From a virus, in IMG/VR virus record IMGVR_UViG_3300033571_002122, positions 1 through 33,873 of that record: 33,873 bases of DNA; one strand, 5' to 3'. Made by a program: the position numbers and the translations under genes. The notes beneath the pieces were generated by a model. That model was not told the origin of the DNA. It did no database searches and saw only the letters and a program-made list of their open reading frames with translations. Below are positions 17,885 through 20,726 of this stretch, piece after piece; the stretch's first letter is position 1; every line of letters begins with the position of its first letter.

Positions 17885-18651
17885 TGCACTACTACAAGCG
17901 GCACATTGGCGACTATGCAAAAAAGTGCGGTCGCCTGACAATGCTTCAGCATGGCGCATATACCTTGCTCATGGATTCGATCTATGACAAGGAAAAATTC
18001 CCAACTATTGACCAAGCAATCGAATGGTCGTGGGCATCAACAGAGGCAGAGGTTGAGGCGGTCAAATTTGTCCTGAGTCGATTTTTCAAGCTCACAGAAT
18101 CTGGCGAATATGTCCAGCAGCGCATCTCTGAAGAACTTGAGAATTACCATAAGAACTCTGAGACAAACAAACGAATCGCCATTGAAAGAGAAACGAAGCG
18201 TAGAGAAAACAGCACGAACCGTGCACCAACCGTTAACGAACCTCCACCTAACCATAAACCACTAACCACTAACCAAGAACCAATAGATATAGATGCTAAC
18301 GCATCTTTGTCGGAAACTGCGTTTCCTCCCTGCCCCCACAAAAAGATTATTAACCTATTTGGTAAACATCTTGGACATTTGCCTCAGCCTCGTGTTTGGG
18401 AGGGAAATAGGGAAGCCATGCTTCGCCAGAGGTGGATTCAAGCATCCAAGCCATCCGACTTTTCGCCTGAAGGCTATAAAACCGAATCTGATGGCCTCAA
18501 GTGGTGGGATTCGTTCTTTGCCTATATTGCCACAGACACCAAGTTGGCAAGAGGTTTTGAAACCAATGGGAGACTTTGGCAGCCTGATCTGCCTTGGATT
18601 GTGAACTCTTCCAATTTCGCCAAAATCATTGATGGGAAGTATGAAAAATGA
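17884..18651 (+). CDS. Replication protein with N-terminal DUF1376 (YdaU-like) domain
   Basis: The start is ATG 17884, with GGAGG immediately upstream. The 255-residue protein begins MHYYKRHIGDYAKKCGRLT, the DUF1376 signature, through about residue 95 (LSRFFKLTESGEYVQQRI). A hydrophilic Asn/Pro-rich linker follows (about 100-155). The C-terminal domain contains KIINLFGKHLGHLPQPRVW and LRQRWIQA, with SDGLKWWDSFFAYIATD, typical of phage replication initiators that load host helicase. No helicase loader or polymerase is coded beside it, so it likely acts alone with host machinery. The ending overlaps the next gene. Confidence 0.85.
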   Translation: MHYYKRHIGDYAKKCGRLTMLQHGAYTLLMDSIYDKEKFPTIDQAIEWSWASTEAEVEAVKFVLSRFFKLTESGEYVQQRISEELENYHKNSETNKRIAIERETKRRENSTNRAPTVNEPPPNHKPLTTNQEPIDIDANASLSETAFPPCPHKKIINLFGKHLGHLPQPRVWEGNREAMLRQRWIQASKPSDFSPEGYKTESDGLKWWDSFFAYIATDTKLARGFETNGRLWQPDLPWIVNSSNFAKIIDGKYEK

Positions 18652-18953
18652 CTTTTAAGAAACCAGAAACACAACAAGAGACATCCACTGCCGACCTTCT
18701 TTGTTCAGCCAATGGTTGCGGAAACAGATGGTCTGTTCAGGCTGATGGCAGACCAAGGTGCAGTTTCCATCAATGGTTTGGCTCTGTTCCAGCCCAATAT
18801 GGTTCGATGTATTTGCAGATTGGCGACTATCCTGGAGACAAAAAGGCTTGGGCTAAGCGCATCATGGACAGGCATAAAAGTGGAGAGCCTGTGCATAAGT
18901 TGAGCCTGAAGTTTGCCATGCAAGCGTTGAAGATCAACGAGGAGGTAGCGTGA
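18648..18953 (+). CDS. Small zinc-finger-like protein upstream of the methyltransferase
   Basis: This 101-residue protein overlaps the replication gene by four bases. It has CSANGCGNRWSV followed by RCSFHQW: a Cys-x5-Cys and Cys-x2-His arrangement that may bind zinc. The rest is helical and basic (DKKAWAKRIMDRHKSGEP). It may bind DNA or help the replication protein. The GAGGAGG at its 3' end serves the next two overlapping genes. Function is unknown. Confidence 0.75.
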   Translation: MTFKKPETQQETSTADLLCSANGCGNRWSVQADGRPRCSFHQWFGSVPAQYGSMYLQIGDYPGDKKAWAKRIMDRHKSGEPVHKLSLKFAMQALKINEEVA

Positions 18954-19690
18954 ATGAGTTGGCTCTTTTCGCAGGCGCTGGTGGAGGAATACTTGGGGGA
19001 AAGCTCCTTGGATGGCGAACAGTCTGTGCGGTCGAATGGGAACCATACCCAGCAAGCGTATTGTGCGCCAGACAAAATGACGGACTTCTCCCGCCTTTCC
19101 CGATTTGGGATGATGTTCAAACCTTTGATGGAAATCCTTGGAGAGGAATTGTTGATGTGGTATCTGGAGGGTTTCCCTGCCAAGACATATCCGCAGCAGG
19201 GAGAGGCGCAGGGATTGATGGAGAGCGATCAGGAATGTGGCGAGAAATGGCACGCATCATTCGTGAAGTTCGACCCCGATTCGTGTTCGTGGAAAACTCA
19301 CCAATGCTCACTTCTCGGGGGCTTGGAGTTGTTCTCGGAGACTTGGCCTCAATGGGGTTTGATGCGAGGTGGGGAGTGTTGGGAGCAGACTCCGTTGGGG
19401 CTTGTCACCATAGAGAAAGAATTTGGATATTGGCCTACACCAACGGCGACAGATTGGAAGGCAACTGGGAAATTAGAAACATTAAAACGGCAAGGGGACA
19501 AGAATGGGGTTGGGCATCAAAACAGACCTCAATACCACTATGCCCGCAAATTCAACATGAAAATGCCGTTGGCAGCGCAAGAGATATTGATGATGTGGCC
19601 GCTAGGGTGGACAGACTTAAAGCCATTGGAAATGGACAAGTGCCACTTTGTGCAGCAACAGCCTTCAAAATCCTGAGCAAAGACCTATGA
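18950..19690 (+). CDS. C5 cytosine DNA methyltransferase (short form)
   Basis: This 246-residue enzyme transfers a methyl group from SAM to cytosine C5. Motif I is ALFAGAGGGILGG (residues 5-17), motif IV is GGFPCQDIS with catalytic Cys77, motif VI is ENS near 115-117, motif VIII is HHRERIWILA near 153-162, and motifs IX-X are VDRLKAIGNGQVP near 220-232. The variable target-recognition segment is only about 55 residues. The GTG start at 18950 lies four bases after GGAGG. A second long frame (18954-19676) covers almost the whole gene. Activity is likely; specificity is unknown. Confidence 0.9.
   Translation: MNELALFAGAGGGILGGKLLGWRTVCAVEWEPYPASVLCARQNDGLLPPFPIWDDVQTFDGNPWRGIVDVVSGGFPCQDISAAGRGAGIDGERSGMWREMARIIREVRPRFVFVENSPMLTSRGLGVVLGDLASMGFDARWGVLGADSVGACHHRERIWILAYTNGDRLEGNWEIRNIKTARGQEWGWASKQTSIPLCPQIQHENAVGSARDIDDVAARVDRLKAIGNGQVPLCAATAFKILSKDL
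18954..19676 (+). CDS. Overlapping +1-frame protein, possible methyltransferase partner
   Basis: An ATG-initiated 240-residue frame lies wholly within the methyltransferase gene. GGAGG is eight bases before its ATG, better spacing than for the GTG of the enzyme. The product has 11 Trp and a patterned sequence: MSWLFSQALVEEYLGES, SRLSRFGMMFKPL, DSCSWKTHQCSLLGGLELF, SETWPQWGLMRGGECW, YWPTPTATDW and WPLGWTDLKPLEMDKC. I recall the last blocks from phage proteins usually labelled DNA methyltransferase, often C-terminal to or next to a C5 domain. A recognition subunit in trans is possible. Chance overlap is the alternative. Confidence 0.6.
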   Translation: MSWLFSQALVEEYLGESSLDGEQSVRSNGNHTQQAYCAPDKMTDFSRLSRFGMMFKPLMEILGEELLMWYLEGFPAKTYPQQGEAQGLMESDQECGEKWHASFVKFDPDSCSWKTHQCSLLGGLELFSETWPQWGLMRGGECWEQTPLGLVTIEKEFGYWPTPTATDWKATGKLETLKRQGDKNGVGHQNRPQYHYARKFNMKMPLAAQEILMMWPLGWTDLKPLEMDKCHFVQQQPSKS

Positions 19691-19872
19691 ACATTGAACA
19701 AGCCAAAAAAATCCTTGATGAGCACAAAGAAACTGGATGCCATTCGATACTCACCGTTACCCGAGCACTGTGGGCAAGCGGAGATTTATGTGGAGTGGAT
19801 GGACACTTGCTTGAGGCTGGCGAGGAACCCTGGGTGGAAGGCGCACATCTGGTGGAGAGTGCAAGACCTTGA
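19687..19872 (+). CDS. Small hypothetical protein overlapping the next frame
   Basis: ATG 19687 overlaps the methyltransferase stop (ATGA). The 61-residue product begins MNIEQAKKILDEHKETGCH and continues SILTVTRALWASGDLCGV. The first half is helical. Most of it overlaps the +1-frame gene from 19718. The coupling signal supports translation. I do not recognise a family. Confidence 0.6.
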   Translation: MNIEQAKKILDEHKETGCHSILTVTRALWASGDLCGVDGHLLEAGEEPWVEGAHLVESARP

Positions 19873-19963
19873 TGCTGACACATCTGGGCTATTCAAAGGC
19901 TTCAAAGAAGATTTTTTAACAAGAGTGAAAGAGGTTAAGAATGAATCCATTTCAGATCAATGA
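19718..19963 (+). CDS. Small hypothetical protein in the +1 frame, overlapping 19687-19872
   Basis: From ATG 19718 the frame gives 81 residues: MSTKKLDAIRYSPLPEHCG, AEIYVEWMDTCLRLARNPG, WKAHIWWRVQDLDADTSG and LFKGFKEDFLTRVKEV. The last two segments read as a genuine amphipathic helical protein. It uniquely covers 19873-19940, which would otherwise be empty, and ends overlapping the next gene by 23 bases. No strong ribosome site precedes it. A programmed shift from the 19687 frame is an alternative. Confidence 0.55.
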   Translation: MSTKKLDAIRYSPLPEHCGQAEIYVEWMDTCLRLARNPGWKAHIWWRVQDLDADTSGLFKGFKEDFLTRVKEVKNESISDQ

Positions 19964-20726
19964 GCCTACTTGCATCAGCTTCTCTGGTGGCAGGACAAGC
20001 GCCTATATGCTTTGGAGGGTGCTAGAGGCGCATGGTGGCAAACTGCCAGATGAGGCCATTGTCTGCTTTGCCAACACGGGCAAGGAAGATGAGGCAACAC
20101 TGAAGTTTGTCCATGACTGTGAAACCAATTGGGATGTGAAGATTCATTGGCTGGAGTTCATTCCAAAGTCTTTTATTGAGGTTGACTACCAAACCGCTAG
20201 TCGCAATGGAGAGCCTTTTGAGCGACTGATAGAGATGAAAAACTACCTTCCAAACCCAGTGGCAAGATTTTGCACAGAGGAATTGAAAGTCAAAACCATA
20301 GACAAGTTTTTGGAAAGCAAGGGAATAGAAGCTCAAATGATGGTTGGCATCAGGGCAGACGAACCAAGAAGGCTGCCTAAACTCAGGGCTAGAGGTTTAT
20401 CAGTCCCATTGGCAGATGCTGGAATCAAGCAGATAGATGTTCAGTCTTTTTGGAAACAAGGCGGGTTTGACCTTGGGCTGACTTTCAGGGATGGAGTTAC
20501 TGCCCTTGGAAACTGTGATTTATGCTTTCTGAAAGGCCCACATCAGATCATGGGGCTAATTAAAGACAAGCCAGATCGGGCTATTTGGTGGGCAAAGCAA
20601 GAGGAAAAGATAGGCGCAACATTTAGAAGTGATCGGCCTACTTATGGTCAGATGATGCAATTCATGAATGATCAAGCGGATATGTTCAATACTGAAGGCA
20701 CGATAGAGTGCTTTTGCGGGGATTGA
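19941..20726 (+). CDS. PAPS-reductase-like PP-loop ATPase
   Basis: This 261-residue protein has the PP-loop SGGRTS at residues 15-20, then CFANTGKEDEATLKFVHDC, ARFCTEELKVKTIDKFL near 107-123, and MMVGIRADEPRRL. This is the phosphoadenosine-phosphosulfate reductase/adenylating PP-loop family. The C-terminal part has NCDLCFLKG and IECFCGD, four cysteines that may bind a metal or Fe-S centre. Such phage proteins adenylate substrates or take part in sulfur transfer; it lies right after a methyltransferase, so nucleic acid modification is possible. Substrate is unknown. Confidence 0.85.
   Translation: MNPFQINEPTCISFSGGRTSAYMLWRVLEAHGGKLPDEAIVCFANTGKEDEATLKFVHDCETNWDVKIHWLEFIPKSFIEVDYQTASRNGEPFERLIEMKNYLPNPVARFCTEELKVKTIDKFLESKGIEAQMMVGIRADEPRRLPKLRARGLSVPLADAGIKQIDVQSFWKQGGFDLGLTFRDGVTALGNCDLCFLKGPHQIMGLIKDKPDRAIWWAKQEEKIGATFRSDRPTYGQMMQFMNDQADMFNTEGTIECFCGD

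Follow-up and report, generated by a model that had tools for sequence, protein, structure and literature searches.

The locus poses the question of why a short gene for a C5 cytosine DNA methyltransferase stays open a second time, on the same strand and in the +1 frame, over nearly its whole length, and what the second protein would do. The window, that is, the whole stretch of DNA analysed, is a virus record of 33,873 bases carrying phage terminase, portal, tail and replication genes. The two frames that the earlier note had described, frame 0 and a +1 frame open for 240 codons, were borne out; the +1 product is referred to below as f1. The features of the locus are the following:

18648..18953, + strand: upstream ORF, 101 aa, function unknown; open frame.
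18940..18945, + strand: AGGAGG, Shine-Dalgarno-like by its sequence, 4 nt before GTG 18950 and 8 nt before ATG 18954.
18950..19690, + strand: frame 0, C5 cytosine DNA methyltransferase catalytic subunit, 246 aa; GTG start; motifs I–VIII and X, no IX.
18954..19676, + strand: f1, the +1-frame overlapping protein, 240 aa; ATG start; proposed recognition/motif IX subunit (open frame, phrog_1008, conservation and selection tests).
18965..18985, + strand: frame-0 motif I (LFAGAGG); invariant alignment columns.
19169..19183, + strand: frame-0 motif IV, GFPCQ, with the catalytic cysteine; invariant alignment columns.
19292..19300, + strand: frame-0 motif VI (ENS); invariant alignment columns.
19406..19435, + strand: frame-0 motif VIII region (HHRERIWILA); invariant R155 and R157.
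19431..19568, + strand: f1 variable region with WPTPTATDW at its start (consensus of homologues); hypervariable in sequence and length; presumed target recognition.
19569..19613, + strand: f1 motif-IX-like segment (PLAAQEILMMWPLGW); near-invariant P206, E210, M213, P216, W219 and T220; profile alignment to classical motif IX.
19610..19657, + strand: frame-0 motif X (DRLKAIGNGQVPLCAA), ca. 8.7 codons downstream of the motif-IX-like segment of f1.

Frame 0 matched PF00145 in Pfam (1.5e-29, profile positions 4–169 of 324 only) and phrog_363 (1.4e-63). No match to f1 was found in Pfam or NCBIfam; among the PHROG families it matched phrog_1008 (3.4e-17), labelled 'DNA methyltransferase', to which the methyltransferase-associated proteins mentioned in the earlier note correspond. 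The stop codon TGA (18951–18953) of the upstream 101-aa ORF, itself without a Pfam or PHROG match, abuts the +1 ATG and overlaps the frame-0 GTG. Right behind the methyltransferase gene lies an 89-aa ORF of unknown function (19694–19963, TTG start).

The start sites were compared across homologues. The +1 ATG was kept in 163/164 loci, 133 of which had a frame-0 ATG, GTG or TTG 4 nt upstream of it; in loci without a frame-0 start at this distance, an in-frame start was usually found 13–22 nt upstream. A Shine-Dalgarno match of at least 4 bases was present in 92/108 homologues, mostly 5–10 nt before the +1 ATG. Since AGGAGG stands near both starts in the window, it is inferred that one binding site could serve both.

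With the frame-0 protein and codon usage kept fixed, the window gene was expected to contain 4.5 +1 stops, and the probability of an open frame was ca. 0.001; the open frame is thus unlikely to be due to chance, as had been claimed, at a level less extreme for a single gene than the 1e-5 then given. The longest +1 run was 240 codons (shuffles: mean 97, maximum 211). No internal +1 stop occurred in any of 108 non-redundant homologues vs 4.9 expected per sequence (frame-0 synonymous codons shuffled). For single-chain methyltransferases from genomes carrying the pair, 15.9 +1 stops were counted vs 16.2 expected, and no excess of +1 openness was seen in single-chain enzymes of up to 68% GC. Similarity of f1 between homologues was 5.7–12 SD above that of codon-shuffled pairs at every identity level and exceeded the null along the whole length, the smallest excess being that of the variable region (160–205). 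Profile scores for f1: window gene – 371 bits, codon-shuffled copies – ca. 209 bits (z 11.7); single-chain methyltransferases – at the null (z ca. 0); distant members tested – above all 200 shuffles, also with the C-terminal part alone. As the shuffled copies still reach ca. 209 bits from frame-0 conservation alone, raw E-values overstate the homology of f1; they were discarded as inflated, and only the excess over shuffles was used.

Selection was measured as dSN/dSS, i.e., changes silent in frame 0 that alter f1 relative to changes silent in both frames: 0.37–0.47 in three divergence bins; 0.61–0.77 in flanking-gene controls of the same loci. Variation at frame-0 third codon positions, relative to first positions, was likewise below that of the controls. 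Sequence pairs in this test share ancestry, so the confidence intervals are too narrow and it is the contrast with the controls that counts. The earlier note would have been refuted if no homologue kept the +1 frame or its open length and if substitutions fitted the methyltransferase frame only; instead, the frame and its length are kept, f1-altering silent changes are depleted relative to neighbouring genes, as expected under purifying selection on the +1 frame, and the methyltransferase frame alone does not account for the substitutions. Purifying selection was detected on both frames, which is one criterion for dual coding.

The +1 frame might still be regarded as a non-coding by-product of codon bias, frame-0 conservation or GC content, and the ca. 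209 bits retained by shuffled copies do show that frame-0 conservation alone yields f1-like similarity. This account is already contradicted and was left with almost no credence: the real gene stands far above its shuffled copies, the 108 homologues are free of stops, GC-rich single-chain enzymes have no excess openness, and silent sites are constrained relative to neighbouring genes. An origin by chance or codon bias was accordingly ruled out by the codon shuffles, the single-chain controls and the silent-site tests. Dual coding of the window gene is close to certain, the evidence being computational only.

The pair is widespread. A tblastn search with f1 gave 27 phage records, 13 of them covering at least 80% of f1, and every match that was opened sits on a methyltransferase gene. 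The IMG/VR scans gave 80 loci with f1 as the query and 80 loci with the methyltransferase as the query; with the latter alone, an overlapping +1 f1 ORF was present at 80/80 loci, and overall in 176/177 sequences. Each of the 80 f1 relatives from genome contigs lies across a methyltransferase gene in its +1 frame, and f1 away from this methyltransferase was not found among them. Titles of the f1-bearing contigs name Proteobacteria, Actinomycetota, Verrucomicrobiota, Patescibacteria, an archaeal bin and others. In Enterobacteriaceae (26 loci, including three of the window type) a more distant methyltransferase group also carries f1 in the +1 frame; its frame 0 is ca. 230–400 aa long, often with MTAYYNEIDP near its start. 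PHROG 1008 was matched by all 77 f1 proteins scanned. Single-chain enzymes in 18 genomes were without f1; the short methyltransferases of the same genomes all had it, but these are mostly the loci by which the genomes had been chosen, and only the single-chain negative was used. Two loci with frame disruptions (L226 and L309), possibly assembly errors, were excluded from the argument.

In the public records examined, mostly one of the two frames is annotated, and some records choose the +1 frame. A Pseudomonas phage (L162:3001-3729) and a Vibrio phage (L168:1501-2199) are annotated in the +1 frame only, the methyltransferase frame being missing.

What f1 contributes was sought in the division of motifs between the two chains. 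The catalytic motifs of a C5 methyltransferase (PF00145), namely I, IV (PCQ), VI (EN), VIII and X, are all met in frame 0, whose profile aligned to M.HhaI residues 16–179 only (1e-19), corresponding to motifs I–VIII, and whose C-terminal end is motif X (DRLKAIGNGQVP). That chain does not also include the target-recognition region and motif IX; the statement that frame 0 holds all key C5 motifs therefore stands for I–VIII and X and fails for IX. Frame 0 meets the description of a large subunit of the M.EcoHK31I type (I–VIII and X, without IX). The motif IX pattern was observed in 209/258 f1 proteins vs 0/258 frame-0 proteins, and the distance from the f1 segment to frame-0 motif X was constant (8.7 codons) in 190 loci. 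The window's own f1 segment (PLAAQEILMMWPLGWT) is diverged and fails the pattern; the family consensus is LNPxWxEWLMGWPxGWT, and the most conserved f1 residues of a diverse alignment lie largely inside this segment. In profile–profile comparison (hhalign), the f1 consensus LNPxWxEWLMGWP and the corresponding LNPAHSRWLMGFP of the distant group were placed best on LTPRECARLMGFP of single-chain enzymes; the match of the f1 profile to classical motif IX (E 0.12–0.22) is short, weak and not significant alone. Since the second protein holds a motif-IX-like piece that the short enzyme is without, both parts of a divided enzyme are probably encoded in the same DNA.

Rearranged relatives carry the same motifs with other boundaries. 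In a Paraburkholderia locus (L224) frame 0 ends past motif VIII, and the f1 ORF holds IX and then X in one frame. The same partition, with IX and X on the f1-type protein, was found in mycobacteriophage Shaka (gp77/gp76) and Arthrobacter phage Andrew (gp43/gp44), where the second genes lie in the +1 frame and overlap the first by 23 nt or ca. 240 nt. In Paenibacillus phage DevRi (gp56/gp57) f1 is embedded; it is annotated as a second methyltransferase and was missed by all gene callers. These pairs fit one enzyme shared by two chains with a movable boundary. The guess in the earlier note of a trans-acting subunit for the short enzyme gains support from the location of motif IX and from the shift of motif X to the f1-type protein; the function remains an inference because there are no peptide, expression or activity data.

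At two further loci (L202:1426-2215 and L204:3960-4746) a single in-frame stop breaks frame 0, past motif VIII in the former and immediately ahead of that motif in the latter; f1 is open in both, and motif X lies on a separate ORF.

Ribosomal frameshifting was also considered, by which the frames would be joined into one chain, frame 0 through motif VIII followed by the +1 recognition region and IX. It would give the order I–VIII, recognition region, IX in a single chain, and the split genes of Shaka, Llama and Andrew are likewise +1 related. However, a conserved ATG and a Shine-Dalgarno site belong to f1 itself, which is conserved from residue 1, and the fused chain would be without motif X, which is retained in frame 0; frameshifting is considered highly improbable.

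In a FastTree tree of motif I–VIII regions, rooted at midpoint, all 46 dual or split enzymes grouped together, apart from 22 single-chain enzymes (local support 0.87); co-start forms nest within embedded forms, alongside L224 and L241. The simplest reading is a single origin of f1 as an embedded second subunit and its later upstream extension to the co-start; the root and weak nodes leave the order open.

The likely products of the two frames are the subunits of a split C5 methyltransferase comparable to M.EcoHK31I, a reading without biochemical data behind it. By this mechanism, one Shine-Dalgarno site would recruit ribosomes, and initiation would occur at GTG 18950 or ATG 18954. The GTG product would be the subunit for catalysis, with SAM binding, the catalytic Cys and motifs I–VIII and X; its partner from the ATG would bring the variable region, presumed to recognise DNA, together with the motif-IX-like segment. 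In single-chain enzymes motif IX packs the small domain. Neither subunit alone would be expected to methylate; both jointly would modify phage DNA, presumably countering host restriction. The analysis itself established the two open frames, their conservation under selection, how the motifs are divided and the single clade; translation of both frames, formation of a heterodimer, specificity derived from f1 and the anti-restriction role are inferred.

The most substantial alternative is that f1 is a real overlapping protein with a separate job, e.g., counter-defence or host takeover, tied to the methyltransferase only by shared DNA. Residues 1–160 of f1 are conserved, far past what motif IX requires (just the last 30), and the lack of a Pfam or NCBIfam match would suit an independent protein. 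In two streptococcal phages checked (L323:1309-2172 and L324:1348-2481) the enzyme is single-chain and its frame 0 includes motif IX; these and a C. difficile phage enzyme of the single-chain type (L326:1303-2133) have +1 open frames of 141–160 codons, which exceed almost every codon shuffle and weakly resemble the f1 core. As the streptococcal enzymes and that of C. difficile phage phiCD27 keep long +1 frames, the former together with an in-frame IX, some +1 function may not need the absence of IX. Against a separate job, f1 terminates in a motif-IX-like segment that is absent from its frame-0 partners, motif X has been relocated to the f1-type protein in L224, Shaka and Andrew, and the genome contigs gave no f1 apart from this methyltransferase. 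The alternative was judged unlikely, and two subunits of one split enzyme remain the preferred explanation.

The length of f1 rises with the number of WPTP-type modules (mean 234 aa without a module, 317 aa at three modules). WPTPxxxD-like repeats are mostly ca. 28–50 residues apart, e.g., in the long variable regions of L224, L236 and L225. They look like recognition units that could be exchanged, which is a guess as to their role. AlphaFold gave no confident fold for f1 alone (two runs, mean pLDDT 52 and 59), residues 201–230 around motif IX being the exception to the low confidence. Such a model could be what an obligate partner looks like in isolation and proves nothing. Searches of the PDB by f1 sequence gave nothing real, and by the fold of the f1 model nothing was found; four fold matches in a viral library (E <0.001) were not used because query TM-scores were <0.25.

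No restriction enzyme was recognised beside the methyltransferase among ten neighbours scanned. A PAPS-reductase-like gene (phrog_424; window 19941-20726) lies just downstream of the methyltransferase, and in Dictyobacter a PAPS-reductase-like ORF below the Pfam cut-off (L256:2902-3741) lies directly upstream. Adenine methyltransferase genes adjoin or lie near the dual-coded gene at several unrelated loci (L243:2758-3633, L256:5051-5893 and L163:2407-3000); one neighbour (L255:5160-5984) weakly resembles the Mom DNA-modification family, at a score below the cut-off.

The small-subunit gene of M.EcoHK31I lies inside the large-subunit gene in a different frame. This enzyme (YGGCCR; Lee, Kam and Shaw 1995) consists of two polypeptides, the large one with motifs I–VIII and X and the small one with IX, and its predicted recognition domain is in the large subunit, as summarised in PMC3404938. 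The motif division resembles the one proposed for the window; the window f1, however, has its start 4 nt downstream of that of the methyltransferase and spans nearly all of the gene, and the recognition region is proposed to be on f1, the presumed small-subunit counterpart, rather than on the large subunit as described for M.EcoHK31I (PMC3404938). In a search for an M.EcoHK31I-like pair on plasmids, the three enterobacterial plasmids examined carry longer methyltransferases (379–475 aa). M.AquI is a natural split C5 methyltransferase whose second subunit has motifs IX and X (PMC3404938); its partition is matched by L224, Shaka gp77/gp76 and Andrew gp43/gp44, not by the window.

Fully overlapping C5 methyltransferase ORFs have been noted in Streptococcus thermophilus 5093-group phages; earlier cases are a pneumococcal phage and a streptococcal conjugative transposon (PMC5601072). 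As in the window, C5-methyltransferase-like products are read there from the same DNA in different frames; the passage concerned offers this as a remark and contains no selection tests, motif partition or wider survey. PHROG 363 (frame 0) and PHROG 1008 (f1) are both labelled DNA methyltransferase and listed separately, the labels being silent on the shared DNA. The ShiLan domain, a hidden HNH endonuclease of mycobacteriophage methylases, is encoded by an out-of-frame gene within the methylase gene (PMC11855218); it is an inserted homing element of patchy distribution, whereas f1 overlaps the methyltransferase's own conserved motifs. The relaxed-specificity m5C enzymes of Paracoccus prophages (PMC3925955) may be related to the pair. 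With two-polypeptide enzymes and overlapping ORFs already reported, the arrangement of the window is not without precedent; new, as far as the literature searched shows, are the co-start, an almost complete overlap, the signs of selection, the wide occurrence within one clade and the way in which the motifs are divided.

One ancient event may have dual-coded a whole clade of phage and bacterial C5 methyltransferases, with a catalytic and a recognition subunit in two frames; one derived clade would have extended f1 upstream to starts 4 nt apart, and the +1 subunit would gain or swap repeated WPTPxxxD modules, changing or widening specificity, with frame 0 tolerating them as a loop. This full account is offered tentatively, as a serious possibility that is rather to be doubted than accepted.

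Long same-strand overlapping genes are usually taken to be rare or to be annotation errors; here the overlap covers almost all of an enzyme gene, has been retained in phages and in many bacterial phyla, and joins two protein families listed separately despite their common DNA. The pair could serve engineering as a split methyltransferase found in nature, and it is a clear test case for the co-evolution of two overlapping frames. If f1 is the recognition subunit, many short-looking orphan phage C5 methyltransferases would be half enzymes, and expression of frame 0 only, from a recoded gene, would miss the activity.
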